A stretch of 64,000 nt of DNA from Agrococcus sp. ProA11 (GTDB taxonomy: Bacteria; Actinomycetota; Actinomycetes; Actinomycetales; Microbacteriaceae), in the NCBI RefSeq assembly GCF_039880525.1, contig NZ_CP156989.1, forward strand, positions 434,001 through 498,000. Direction: 5' to 3'. The notes beneath the pieces were generated by a model. That model ran no database searches and was not told the DNA's origin. It saw only the letters and a list, made by a program, of their open reading frames with translations. The position numbers were made by a program, and so were the translations under genes. Positions within the stretch are counted from its first letter, which is position 1. Every line of letters begins with the position of its first letter. This document shows positions 10,981 to 15,446 of this stretch, in pieces.

Positions 10981-12948
10981 GTGCTCCAGCCTCACCACGA
11001 CGGTTCATCCCTCCACGTCTCGACGCTGACGCCCACCATGGGCGAGATCGTCCGGGTGCGCCTGCGCGTGCCCGTCTCGCACGACACCCCGCTCGAGGTG
11101 CTCGTGCGCTCCAACCCTGATCGCGAGCCCTTCTTCAACAAGGCCCTGCACGTCGGCACCGCCGGCGCCTACGACTGGTGGGAAGCCGAGATCCGGGTGG
11201 TGAATCCCGTGCACCGCTACCGATGGCTCGTGCACTACGCCTCTGGTCACACCGAGTGGATCAACCAGGAGGGCGTGCACCCGATCGAGACCCGCGACGA
11301 CGCGGACTTCGCGCTGGTGGCATACCCGTCGCCGCCGTCCTGGGCGACGGATGCGGTGCTCTACCAGGTGTTCCCCGACCGGTTCGCGCGCTCGCAGCAG
11401 GCCGAGCAGCACGCGACCCCGGAGTGGGCGCAGGCGGCGTCATGGGACGAGCCGGTGATCGGCACGGGCCCCGGAGTCTCCACCCAGCTCTACGGCGGCG
11501 ACCTGCCCGGCGTCGAGGAGCACCTCGATCACCTGGTCGAGCTGGGAGCCACGGTGCTGTACCTGACTCCAGTCTTCCCCGGCGACTCGAACCACCGCTA
11601 CAACGCCTCCACCTTCGACGTCGTCGATCCGCTGCTCGGCGGCGACGAGGCGCTCGTCTCGCTCGTCGAGGCGGCGCACGCGCGCGGTCTCAAGGTGATG
11701 GGGGATCTGACGAGCAACCACACGGGCGACACGCATGCCTGGTTCCAGGCCGCCCAGGCCGACGAGGATGCCCCGGAGCGCGCGTTCTACTACTTCCACG
11801 ACGGCGGCACCTACGCCTCGTGGCTGGGGCACGGGTCGCTGCCCAAGCTGAACTGGAACTCGCAGGAGCTGCGCGACCGGTTCATCGAGGGCCCCGACTC
11901 GGTGGTCGGCAAGTGGCTGCGGCCGCCGTACTCGTTCGACGGCTGGCGCATCGACGTCGCCAACATGACCGGCCGCTACGAGTCGGACGACCTGAACGCC
12001 GAGGTGCGGCAGATCATCCGCAAGACCATGATCGACATCAACCCGGACACGCTGCTGCTGGGGGAGTCGACCAACGACGCGACGGATGATTTCCAGGGCG
12101 ATGCCTGGCATGGCGCGATGACCTACGCGAACTTCACGCGCCCCGTGTGGGGCTGGCTGTCGGTGCCGGGCTCGGCGGCGTTCGGCGGCCTCGGCATGGC
12201 GCGGTCGGTCATCCCCTCCTACTCCGGTGTCGACGTGCACGCGCAGCACCAGCGCTTCGTCGCGGGCATCCCGTGGCGCACGAGGCTCCACAACATGAAC
12301 GCGCTCGACACGCACGACACCCCGCGCTTCGCCACCAACGCGCTGCCCGGCGCCGTGCCCGTCGCGCTCGGCATGGCCGTGGCGCTGCCGGGCATCCCGG
12401 TGGTCTGGTCGGGCGACGAGCTGGGGCTCACGGGCGCCAACGGCGAGGATTCCCGCACGCCCATGCCGTGGGACACCATCGATGAGCATGCCGAATCCAT
12501 CGACCTCTACCGGGCGCTGCTCGCGCTTCGCAGCCAGCAGCCCGCGCTCCGCGGGGGCGGGATGCGGTGGCTGCACGTGGGTGAGGAGGCACTCGTGTGG
12601 ATCCGCGAGACGCGCGACTCCAGCGTGCTGTGCGTTGCCGCTCGAGGCTTCTATGACGTGGTCATCGACGAGGGCGACGTGGGCCTCGCCGGGGAGCCGA
12701 CGCGGCTGTTCGGCGACGGCGGCGTCAGCATCTTCGGCGACGGCGGCGTGCGCCTGACCGGCTCCGGTCCCGCGTTCGCGGCCTGGGGGCTGCCGGGCGT
12801 CGTGCTGCCGCATACCGACGGTGACGACGAGCAGGCGCAGCGAGACATGCTGGACGAGAATGCGGCGCAGGACGCCGCGCTCGCCCACGGCGAGGCTGCC
12901 GCGCCGACGCTCACCGCCGCCTGGAGCAAGGACACCCTCGACGAGTAG
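10981..12948 (+). CDS. GH13 neopullulanase / cyclomaltodextrinase-like glycosidase
   Basis: The 655-residue protein has an N-terminal beta-sandwich (about 1-115, CBM34-like) and a GH13 barrel with YQVFPDRFA (128-136), DLTSNH (242-247), nucleophile D325 in GWRIDVAN, acid/base E362 in LLGEST and LDTHDTPRF. A C-terminal beta domain and an acidic, Ala-rich tail follow. Without a signal peptide it is cytoplasmic and should cut cyclodextrins, pullulan or maltodextrins. Its place just beyond malEFG and the NSS pair fits maltodextrin use. GTG 10981 lies 6 bases after TAGCGT. Confidence 0.9.
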   Translation: MLQPHHDGSSLHVSTLTPTMGEIVRVRLRVPVSHDTPLEVLVRSNPDREPFFNKALHVGTAGAYDWWEAEIRVVNPVHRYRWLVHYASGHTEWINQEGVHPIETRDDADFALVAYPSPPSWATDAVLYQVFPDRFARSQQAEQHATPEWAQAASWDEPVIGTGPGVSTQLYGGDLPGVEEHLDHLVELGATVLYLTPVFPGDSNHRYNASTFDVVDPLLGGDEALVSLVEAAHARGLKVMGDLTSNHTGDTHAWFQAAQADEDAPERAFYYFHDGGTYASWLGHGSLPKLNWNSQELRDRFIEGPDSVVGKWLRPPYSFDGWRIDVANMTGRYESDDLNAEVRQIIRKTMIDINPDTLLLGESTNDATDDFQGDAWHGAMTYANFTRPVWGWLSVPGSAAFGGLGMARSVIPSYSGVDVHAQHQRFVAGIPWRTRLHNMNALDTHDTPRFATNALPGAVPVALGMAVALPGIPVVWSGDELGLTGANGEDSRTPMPWDTIDEHAESIDLYRALLALRSQQPALRGGGMRWLHVGEEALVWIRETRDSSVLCVAARGFYDVVIDEGDVGLAGEPTRLFGDGGVSIFGDGGVRLTGSGPAFAAWGLPGVVLPHTDGDDEQAQRDMLDENAAQDAALAHGEAAAPTLTAAWSKDTLDE

Positions 12949-13045
12949 CGCCGCCCTGCGCCGCCTTCCGCGAATCGAGGAGGGGCCGGCGGCCCCGTCA
13001 CGAGACCCCGCCGCCGCGAGTGTGCGAGCACGCTTCCGCCGATGC

Positions 13046-13051
13046 TATGAT
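13046..13051 (+). promoter_or_regulatory. -10 element of the tRNA-Thr/tRNA-Met transcript
   Basis: TATGAT, one of the best -10 hexamers in the window, lies 24 bases before tRNA-Thr. No clear -35 is visible. Confidence 0.6.
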
Positions 13052-13074
13052 CGTTCGGTTGCCTGCACGGCAGC

Positions 13075-13146
<72 letters not shown>

Positions 13147-13184
13147 CGCGTTCGCTTGATGCTTCGTGCTTGGGTGGGCGTTCT

Positions 13185-13258
13185 GGCGGGGTAGCTCAGT
13201 TGGTGAGAGCGCACGACTCATAATCGTGAGGTCGCGGGTTCGAACCCCGCCCTCGCTA
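13185..13258 (+). tRNA. tRNA-Met (anticodon CAT, elongator type)
   Basis: A 74-base cloverleaf with anticodon stem CACGA/TCGTG and loop CTCATAA. The acceptor stem GGCGGGG/CCTCGCT pairs fully with two G-U pairs; it lacks the unpaired first base of initiator tRNA, so it is read as elongator Met. CCA is not encoded. Confidence 0.93.
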
Positions 13259-13265
13259 CCGCCAG

Positions 13266-13294
13266 GAAGGGCTCGGCCGCAGGCCGGGCCCTTC
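13266..13294 (+). terminator. Intrinsic terminator after tRNA-Met
   Basis: A 13-bp stem (GAAGGGCTCGGCC with GGCCGGGCCCTTC, one G-T pair) and a 3-base loop, followed by TTCGTCTC. Confidence 0.85.
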
Positions 13295-13315
13295 TTCGTC
13301 TCTGGTGACGTGCGC

Positions 13316-13375
13316 GCCCGTCGCTACGCTGCCCGTCACTGGACCGCCCGTCGCTACGCTGCCCGTCGCTAGGCT
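13316..13375 (+). repeat. 15-bp minisatellite, four copies, overlapping a promoter
   Basis: Four head-to-tail 15-base units: copies 1 and 3 are identical (GCCCGTCGCTACGCT), copy 4 differs by one base (GCCCGTCGCTAGGCT), and copy 2 is diverged (GCCCGTCACTGGACC). The last unit supplies the -10 hexamer TAGGCT of the next gene, and copies 1 and 3 contain TACGCT at the same place. Confidence 0.9.
13370..13375 (+). promoter_or_regulatory. -10 element of the leaderless UPF0336/hadA-like gene
   Basis: TAGGCT, then GGGCGA, then GTG at 13382. It is the end of the fourth minisatellite unit. Confidence 0.65.
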
Positions 13376-13381
13376 GGGCGA

Positions 13382-13828
13382 GTGGCAGTGAACCCCGAAA
13401 TCCAGGGCAGGCAGTACCCGCCCACGGCCCCCTATCTGGTCGGGCGCGAGAAGGTGCGCGAGTTCGCCCGCGCGGTGCTCGCGACGCACCCCCAGCACCA
13501 CGACGTCGACGCCGCACGCGCGGCCGGGCACCCCGATGTCGTCGCGCCCCCGACGTTCCCGATCGTCATCCAGCAGCTCACCTGGAACCAGCTCCTCGAC
13601 GACCCCGCCGCGGGCATCGTGCTCGAGCGCATCGTCCACGGCGACCAGCGCTTCACCGCTACGCGACCGATCGTCGCCGGTGATGAGCTCACGGCGCAGC
13701 TGACGGTCACGCGCGTGCGATCGCTGGGCGGCAACGACATGGTGACCTGCGAGACCGAGGTCACGGATGCGGCCGGCAGCCACGTGGTGACGGCGACGTC
13801 GTCGCTCGTGGTGGCGGGGGCGGCGTGA
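13382..13828 (+). CDS. FAS1-like dehydratase domain protein (UPF0336 / HadA-like)
   Basis: The 148-residue hot-dog-fold protein matches the N-terminal MaoC-like (FAS1 dehydratase) family: IQGRQYPPTAPYLVGREKVREFA at the start and DVVAPPTFPIV in the middle. In mycobacteria HadA pairs with a catalytic HadB to form the 3-hydroxyacyl-ACP dehydratase of long-chain fatty-acid synthesis. Relatives in other actinobacteria have unclear substrates. The next gene overlaps it by 4 bases and is the HadB-like partner, so they likely form a heterodimer. Leaderless start. Confidence 0.85.
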   Translation: MAVNPEIQGRQYPPTAPYLVGREKVREFARAVLATHPQHHDVDAARAAGHPDVVAPPTFPIVIQQLTWNQLLDDPAAGIVLERIVHGDQRFTATRPIVAGDELTAQLTVTRVRSLGGNDMVTCETEVTDAAGSHVVTATSSLVVAGAA

Positions 13829-14253
13829 TGGGCGCGACGTCGAACGAGCTCGGACAGCTCGAGGTCGGCCAGGTGGTGGCCGAGCGCGAGCTGCTGCTGA
13901 CGCGCGAGACCCTGGTGCGCTACGCCGGTGCCTCCGGCGACTTCAACGCGATCCACTACCGCGATGACGTCGCCGTCGCCGTCGGGCTGCCGGGCGTGCT
14001 CGCCCACGGCATGCTCACGATGGGTGCAGCCGTGCAGCCGGTCGTCGACTGGGCCGGCCCCGCGCGCATCCTCGACTACCAGGTGCGCTTCACGCGTCCG
14101 GTGGTCGTCGATGCGGATGCCGGTGCGCGCCTCTTCGTGGTCGCGACCGTCGCGCAGCTCGGCGAGGGCACCGCACGCATCGACCTGATCGTCACCTTCG
14201 ACGAGAAGACCGTGCTCGGCAAGGCACAGGTCGTCGTCGCCACGGATCGATGA
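13825..14253 (+). CDS. MaoC family dehydratase (HadB-like catalytic subunit)
   Basis: The 142-residue protein carries the hydratase-2 motif YAGASGDFNAIHY with the catalytic pair D39 and H44, then the LPGVLAHGMLTMG loop. It should hydrate or dehydrate an acyl thioester together with the preceding subunit. GTG 13825 overlaps the upstream stop; ATG 13828 is an equally possible start one codon later. Its own end overlaps the murB ATG, so the three genes are translated as one coupled unit. Confidence 0.87.
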   Translation: MMGATSNELGQLEVGQVVAERELLLTRETLVRYAGASGDFNAIHYRDDVAVAVGLPGVLAHGMLTMGAAVQPVVDWAGPARILDYQVRFTRPVVVDADAGARLFVVATVAQLGEGTARIDLIVTFDEKTVLGKAQVVVATDR

Positions 14254-15446
14254 CGGACCCCATGAGCGCTCCGACTCCCGAGACCGCGCCCGTCTCTCGC
14301 AAGCTCGCGGACGCCACCACCATGCGCGTCGGCGGCGAGGTCGAGGACTGGGTGGTGGCGACCACGCGCGAGGCCATCGCAGCCGCGTACGCCGACGCAC
14401 TGGACGACGATGCGACGCCGCTGCTGGTGCTCGGCGGCGGCTCCAACACGGTGGCGGCGTCGGAGCACTTCGACGGCACCGTGCTGCAGGTCGCGACCCG
14501 CGGCATCCGCACGCAGGCCGCCGCGGAACCGCCCCATCGCCCGACGGGCGAGGAGCCGCCCGACGATGACTCCGTGGTGCTGCGCGTCGAAGCGGGGGAG
14601 TCGTGGGAGGGACTGGTCGCGCACACGGTCGCCGATGGTCTCGCTGGCCTGGAAGCGCTGAGCGGCATTCCCGGCTCTGTCGGTGCGGCACCCATCCAGA
14701 ACATTGGTGCCTACGGGCAGGAGGTCGCCTCGACCCTGGTGAGCATCGAGCTGCTGGAGCGCGAGACGCTGGAGGTCCGGCACGTGCCCGCGTCGGAGCT
14801 GCGACTGGGCTATCGCGACTCGGCCATGAAGCAGGGGCTGCTCTCCGGCATCGTGCTGTCGGTCGACCTGCGCCTGCACCGCGCGCCGGACGGTCGCAGC
14901 CAGCCGGTGGCCTACCAGCAGTTGGCGACCGCCCTGGGCGTCGACCTCGGCACCCGCGTGCCACTGGAGGACGTGCGGACGACGGTGCTGGAGCTGCGGC
15001 GGTCGAAGGGCATGGTGCTCTCCGACGACCCGGATTCGGTGAGCGCGGGCTCGTTCTTCACCAACCCCATCGTCTCCGCCAGGTTCGCCAACGAGCTGCC
15101 TTCCGACGCGCCCCGCTGGTCGGTCGCGCCGCGCCCCTCAGCGACGGTGCTGCCGCTGGACGCCGACACGCCGGCGATCGACGCGCTGCCGTCGCTCGAC
15201 CGGCCCGTGCCGCAGGTGAAGCTCTCGGCGGCATGGCTGATCGAGCACGCCGGCATCGAGCGCGGCTTCGCGCTGCCGGGTTCCCGCGCAGCGATCTCGT
15301 CGAAGCACACGCTCGCGCTCACGAACCGCGGGGGAGCGACGGGCGAGCAGGTGGCAGAGCTGGCCCGCTTCGTGCAGGCGCGCGTCGAGAACCAGTTCGG
15401 CGTGCACCTCGTGCCAGAACCGGTGCTCGTGAACCTGCCGCTGTAG
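14250..15446 (+). CDS. murB: UDP-N-acetylenolpyruvoylglucosamine reductase
   Basis: The 398-residue protein has the FAD-binding PCMH fold: TTMRVGG near the N-terminus, VLGGGSNT, GLEALSGIPGSVGAAPIQNIGAYGQE, the catalytic-serine motif SAGSFFTNP and the C-terminal KLSAAWLIE with SSKHTLALTNR. MurB reduces the enolpyruvyl group to make UDP-N-acetylmuramic acid for peptidoglycan in the cytoplasm. A 20-residue acidic, Pro-rich insert (about 91-110) interrupts the FAD domain. The ATGA overlap links it to the dehydratase pair, an arrangement common in actinobacteria. Confidence 0.95.
   Translation: MTDPMSAPTPETAPVSRKLADATTMRVGGEVEDWVVATTREAIAAAYADALDDDATPLLVLGGGSNTVAASEHFDGTVLQVATRGIRTQAAAEPPHRPTGEEPPDDDSVVLRVEAGESWEGLVAHTVADGLAGLEALSGIPGSVGAAPIQNIGAYGQEVASTLVSIELLERETLEVRHVPASELRLGYRDSAMKQGLLSGIVLSVDLRLHRAPDGRSQPVAYQQLATALGVDLGTRVPLEDVRTTVLELRRSKGMVLSDDPDSVSAGSFFTNPIVSARFANELPSDAPRWSVAPRPSATVLPLDADTPAIDALPSLDRPVPQVKLSAAWLIEHAGIERGFALPGSRAAISSKHTLALTNRGGATGEQVAELARFVQARVENQFGVHLVPEPVLVNLPL

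Follow-up and report, generated by a model that had tools for sequence, protein, structure and literature searches.

Does a short tandem repeat lying directly on the promoter of a housekeeping operon act as a switch of expression, or is it a near-neutral by-product of an older promoter? This question is raised by the DNA upstream of a hadA-like gene (hadA below) in Agrococcus sp. ProA11, where we analysed a window of 64,000 nt (positions 434001-498000 of the 2.67-Mb single-contig genome); coordinates are positions in this window unless given as genome positions. Tandem Repeats Finder reports an array with a 15-bp period, 4.1 copies, 76% matches and a score of 80 at 13316-13376. It is imperfect and 61 bp long, and its four 15-bp units end 6 nt upstream of the GTG at 13382 (Table 1). 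As the preliminary description had held, four 15-base units precede this GTG, the last of them supplying a TAGGCT at a spacing of exactly 6 nt and the first and third carrying TACGCT at the same phase. Two points had been absent from that description: in unit 2 this phase is occupied by TGGACC, which does not qualify as a -10, and position 13388 holds another GTG in the same frame. The description had gone on to propose that slippage adds or removes -10-like units, changes the '-35 context' and thereby varies the expression of an envelope-synthesis unit. From this interpretation the leaderless-type promoter, the duplication of the -10 and the conserved run of genes survive, whereas the -35 context does not.

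Table 1 Features of the hadA promoter region (window positions)
Feature	Position	Strand	Description
tRNA-Met (CAT)	13185..13260	+	Upstream neighbour
Terminator-like hairpin	13264..13300	+	Behind tRNA-Met, before the array; near-perfect stem, weak T tail
Repeat unit 1	13316-13330	+	GCCCGTCGCTACGCT; -10-like TACGCT at 13325-13330
Repeat unit 2	13331-13345	+	GCCCGTCACTGGACC; diverged, TGGACC at the -10 phase, without a -10
Repeat unit 3	13346-13360	+	GCCCGTCGCTACGCT; TACGCT at 13355-13360
Repeat unit 4	13361-13375	+	GCCCGTCGCTAGGCT; conserved -10 TAGGCT at 13370-13375
hadA-like gene	13382..13828	+	GTG start, leaderless by prediction; PF13452, 1.4e-31
hadB-like gene (MaoC dehydratase)	13825..14253	+	Overlaps hadA stop; PF01575, 1.9e-19
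murB	14250..15446	+	Overlaps hadB stop; NF010478

The four units are unequal in their preservation. Units 1 and 3 are identical over all 15 bases, and unit 4 differs from both by a single C to G change at position 12 (14/15). Unit 2 departs from units 1 and 3 at 5/15 bases and from unit 4 at four, all four being transitions; among adjoining units, near-identity is therefore confined to 3 and 4. When the intergenic sequence (13261-13381, 121 nt) was dinucleotide-shuffled 20,000 times, no shuffle reached a Tandem Repeats Finder score of 80 (maximum 78), and 16 reached 60. Arrays of such a score are not rare in the genome, since the best 40 rows from a 464-kb genome sample, several of them overlapping, all score at least 84. 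What is unusual about the hadA array is its position on a leaderless -10, not its score: only 2 of the 74 candidate leaderless -10s in the sample sit in an array scoring at least 40, namely hadA and a site with a 1.9-copy array scoring 46. The strongest array of the sample has a 93-bp unit in 5.6 copies at genome positions 204807-205328 (L132:4807-5328; score 748 at period 93 and 769 at period 185), and at L150:10766-10882 7.3 copies of a 16-bp unit, CGCTCAGCGACGCTCG (89% matches), form an array that is longer and cleaner than that of hadA.

The hairpin behind tRNA-Met has arms (13266-13278 and 13282-13294) that are 92% complementary in an inverted-repeat search, and the fold of 13262-13300 is calculated at -28.8 kcal/mol. 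An RNA family over the array was considered and rejected, two tRNAs being the only RNA-family matches in 13000-13500. Two minus-strand ORFs (13218-13517 and 13256-13783) cross the array antisense to hadA. Downstream, the ORFs of hadA, hadB and murB are tightly packed and overlap, and a longer N-terminus of HadA is ruled out by an in-frame TAG at 13370. MurB scores 418.7 bits against the NCBIfam equivalog NF010478 (cut-off 231), whereas HadA (128.8 bits against NF040624, cut-off 180) and HadB (101.2 bits against NF010246, cut-off 203) fall below the equivalog cut-offs for the HadA and HadB of mycobacterial FAS-II, and we therefore call their genes hadA-like and hadB-like. The term 'envelope-synthesis unit' is thus loose. 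Microbacteriaceae are not known to make mycolic acids, so the Had proteins here are more likely to be ordinary fatty-acid dehydratases.

To place the hadA promoter among others of the genome, we measured the distance from TANNNT to in-frame ATG or GTG codons close to the starts of 333 ORFs in the 464-kb sample, called with a simple codon-bias script, by which a single gene may supply more than one candidate start. The spacings peak at 6 nt (51 cases), with 13 at 7 nt and 10 at 8 nt, against 0-8 at each of the other spacings between 0 and 39 nt. At 6-7 nt no other hexamer is as frequent as TAGGCT (14 with hadA counted, 0.71 expected). TACGCT is among the next commonest at leaderless spacing (6 against 0.41 expected) and appears to be used for leaderless starts in this genome, which upholds the view that the units duplicate a -10-like hexamer. 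A leaderless-type -10, TAGCGT, likewise stands 6 nt before the GTG of the upstream gene (10981-12948), which is of the alpha-amylase family and maltodextrin-glucosidase-like. None of the Shine-Dalgarno words GGAG, GAGG, AGGA and AAGG occurs in 13301-13381. The first T of the hadA hexamer (13370) lies 12 nt before the start codon, and the leaderless signal described for Actinobacteria is a TANNNT positioned some 12 bp upstream of the start (PMC3160421; PMC3898074). As in the leaderless promoters covered there, hadA has its hexamer, TAGGCT, 6 nt before the GTG and no -35, and the CGN that precedes the hexamer is shared with many M. tuberculosis promoters (PMC3160421; PMC3898074). Against these accounts the core hadA promoter shows no difference; only the extra upstream copies set it apart.

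The same comparison bears on the -35 context that slippage had been supposed to alter. Neither the 64 leaderless candidates of this genome spaced at 6-7 nt nor 69 non-Agrococcus hadA promoters yielded a -35 signal. Outside the -10 hexamer the former reach no more than 0.25 bit per column, and no more than 0.11 bit further than one base from it, and the latter no more than 0.10 bit in the expected -35 region; M. tuberculosis leaderless promoters are likewise described as having no -35 signal (PMC3898074). We therefore discarded the idea that the upstream units hold a -35 element, and this part of the earlier proposal falls with it. The 24 Agrococcus hadA rows do contain scattered higher columns, with peaks 38 nt (0.56 bit) and 20 nt (0.49 bit) upstream of the hexamer's end, and these tell against the rejection, although they may stem from relatedness and a shared upstream gene.

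How old is the promoter on which the array sits? We compared 94 hadA loci, 24 from Agrococcus genomes (this one included) and 70 from the best 80 of 98 relatives, leaving out L031-L040 as repeats of Agrococcus loci already counted and L029 and L030 as weak second matches. Among the 70 further loci, 64 carry Microbacteriaceae names, whose genera we take to belong to that family, and the other 6 are actinobacterial MAGs with loose names or records with odd labels. Each species is represented by one genome. The 94 loci are related rather than independent, and the nearest of the 23 Agrococcus relatives has 89% identity in hadA DNA. In 93/94 loci (69/70 outside Agrococcus) the hadA start is preceded by a TANNNT at 4-9 nt, a count that includes L084, where it stands 4 nt from a non-start codon and the likely start is an ATG one codon on. 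The sole locus without it is that of Humibacter albus (L043). Within Agrococcus the hexamer, at the place matching unit 4, is TAGACT in 14 genomes and TAGGCT in 10, at 6 nt (18 genomes) or 7 nt (6 genomes) from a start codon that is GTG in 24/24. The promoter type that had been assigned to hadA is thereby well supported, as is the description of hadA-hadB-murB as one run, whose order is kept in 94/94 loci. A T four bases before the hexamer, which all four units carry, recurs in 16/24 Agrococcus and 47/69 other hadA promoters and is not frequent in leaderless genes at large.

The DNA further upstream is far less constant. An exact search for the tRNA-Met string within about 1.5 kb upstream found it in 14/23 relatives, at up to 157 bp in 4 and at 613-1168 bp in 10, and gave no match in the other 9. 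Across these 14 relatives tRNA-Met and the hadA -10 stand 65 to 1168 bp apart, frequently with a gene inserted between them, and the predicted hadA -10 is kept while its surroundings change. In eight Agrococcus loci (L007, L010, L013-L018) about 1.1 kb separates tRNA-Met from a -10 that is still kept; the one insert that was translated, in L007, presumably encodes a homocysteine S-methyltransferase-like protein, judging by a GGCCG motif. A region so tolerant of insertions would accommodate extra units that are inert, have no promoter activity and do no more than push tRNA-Met and the hadA promoter further apart. The enrichment of TACGCT at leaderless spacing speaks against such a pure spacer, since the polymerase probably recognises this hexamer, and we think it quite unlikely.

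In contrast to the -10 itself, the array over it is found in 1/94 loci and 1/24 Agrococcus genomes, being absent from the 23 other Agrococcus and from 70/70 further loci, so its inheritance within the genus or family was rejected. Microbacterium ulmi (L072) has an 8-bp unit in 5.4 copies that lies 81 to 39 nt upstream of hadA and does not cover the -10. Because the -10 of unit 4 stands where the 23 other Agrococcus have theirs and units 1-3 are absent from the other 93 loci, unit 4 is most simply read as the ancestral promoter and units 1-3 as additions. The unit-4 end is present as a single copy at locus L006 (CTCGCTAGGCTGGGCGGGTG). From the end of tRNA-Met to the last -10 there are 110 bp here, which become 65 bp once three units are subtracted, and the four relatives with a close tRNA-Met have 65, 71, 91 and 157 bp; with comparators spanning 65-157 bp, this agreement is suggestive and fits an expansion without proving it. 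Units 1 and 2 together match units 3 and 4 at 26/30 positions, from which a duplication of a 30-bp unit pair was likely the last step. Two -10s 15 bp apart before an RTG gave 3 matches in the 24 Agrococcus genomes, two in this genome and one in another, against 5 with a reversed control; such pairs are thus not remarkable alone, and it is the near-perfect identity of units 1, 3 and 4 that is. Besides hadA, this genome has one further pair of TANNNT hexamers with the 15-bp offset, at genome positions 769870-769899 on the minus strand, where an ATG follows at leaderless spacing.

An operator array, in which each 15-bp unit would bind, cooperatively, a regulator of fatty-acid or wall synthesis, might likewise show even spacing and two identical units, as units 1 and 3 are here. 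No such array is present at the other 93 hadA starts, and the exact 15-mer unit occurs at three positions of the array and nowhere else in this genome. With up to 2 mismatches it has 51 matches, against 101 for the reversed-pattern control, and on the same grounds a dispersed repeat family was rejected. No inverted repeat was reported within a unit. Fifteen base pairs correspond to about 1.4 helical turns, so adjoining units face different sides of the DNA, which also counts against the operator; we regard it as highly improbable.

We consider it probable that the array is a tandem expansion, so far of one Agrococcus species, of an old and conserved leaderless -10 region, and that it is most likely near neutral. 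A single-unit ancestor would have gained units 1-3 through replication slippage or duplication of a 30-bp unit pair, and the TAGGCT of unit 4 would drive a leaderless hadA-hadB-murB mRNA from the GTG at 13382. With 63 other leaderless -10s as its training set, a hexamer score gives 10.38 for unit 4, 8.95 for units 1 and 3 and -6.29 for unit 2; 24 of the 63 sites score no higher than units 1 and 3 and 39 score higher, a ranking that reflects the middle three bases only, as the training sites were chosen for TANNNT. Given the apparent use of TACGCT in the genome, units 1 and 3 could fire. In M. tuberculosis, SNPs that create a TANNNT often yield new starts (PMC3898074). Here, the housekeeping polymerase may bind at units 1 and 3 and initiate minor transcripts near the purines at 13338 and 13368. 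These RNAs would have leaders of 44 and 14 nt, without a Shine-Dalgarno sequence, would be poor templates for HadA synthesis, and may exert mild competition on the main start. There is no start codon in 13338-13381; with neither a Shine-Dalgarno sequence nor another start codon in the leaders, extra copies need not raise HadA, and they would add noise or compete rather than boost. The array is most likely decaying, unit 2 having lost its -10, and no switch is required, although with one genome per species neutral decay and occasional switching would look alike. There is likewise no sign of a maintained switch at the loci compared, given the restriction of the array to one genome and the lost -10 of unit 2. 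Units 1 and 3, being identical and keeping the T and the CGN of many hadA -10s, could reflect either recent origin or selection. M. tuberculosis leaderless transcripts are described as depleted in active-growth genes (PMC3898074), which fits poorly with a leaderless housekeeping operon, whereas the conservation of the -10 argues for leaderless expression.

The closest parallels are the promoter tandem repeats of M. tuberculosis, described in one report (PMC12817950), with units of 57 bp (dop), 58 bp (lpdA(-glpD2)) and 54-56 bp (cysG(-efpA)). Their copy number differs among strains, with variation at 10^-2 to 10^-3 per chromosome, and within-culture variant reads are given for dop and lpdA and none for cysG (PMC12817950). 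Like them, the hadA array consists of promoter-proximal tandem copies directly upstream of a gene in a high-GC actinobacterium, and those of lpdA and cysG also lie beside leaderless promoters (PMC12817950). Since the repeat at 13316-13376 includes the predicted -10, the hadA array is by position a candidate member of this kind. It differs in unit size, 15 bp holding little beyond a -10 element against 54-58 bp, and the M. tuberculosis repeats are in addition reported to vary in copy number and, for lpdA, to affect expression (PMC12817950). The M. tuberculosis fpg1 repeat (VNTR3239) is likewise intergenic and upstream of a gene, and its variation is linked to downstream gene expression; it has composite units of 55/79 bp, the accessible part of the study describes no duplication of a -10, and its main text does not use the word 'promoter' (PMC2734929). 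A narrow literature search found no published case of a 15-bp promoter repeat, and nothing relevant on leaderless starts in Agrococcus or Microbacteriaceae.

These parallels lend the phase-variable reading, in which slippage of -10-bearing 15-bp units alters hadA-hadB-murB expression between cells or strains, its best arguments: the dop, lpdA and cysG repeats vary in copy number, the lpdA and cysG promoters are leaderless, and for lpdA a 12.5-fold rise in expression from one copy to four is reported (PMC12817950). Units 1 and 3, moreover, retain a usable -10. The rise of expression with copy number in the M. tuberculosis repeats (PMC12817950; PMC2734929) also runs against the competition that we suggest for the extra units. 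The hadA array is, however, short and imperfect, with a diverged unit 2 (5/15 bases against units 1 and 3) and a single pair of near-identical neighbours, is missing from all other loci compared, and would have its units 1 and 3 start transcripts without a Shine-Dalgarno sequence; the housekeeping genes downstream are, in addition, an unlikely target for switching. Altogether, phase variation seems unlikely to us. As leaderless promoters need little beyond CGN-TANNNT, a 15-bp minisatellite can add or remove whole -10s, and one may imagine a minimal promoter repeat whose copy number sets the ratio of productive leaderless to poorly translated leadered hadA mRNA, a slippage-tuned rheostat on a fatty-acid and peptidoglycan operon; this we hold to be very unlikely.

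The hadA array offers a clean natural case of a leaderless -10 region copied in tandem in an environmental actinomycete genus, with 93 array-free loci for comparison, and it could be used to ask if -10s stacked before a leaderless gene act additively or in competition. For now it remains a curiosity of one species, next to a promoter that is well conserved. Of wider reach is the finding that hadA-hadB-murB keeps a leaderless-type -10 at near-fixed spacing across the relatives examined.
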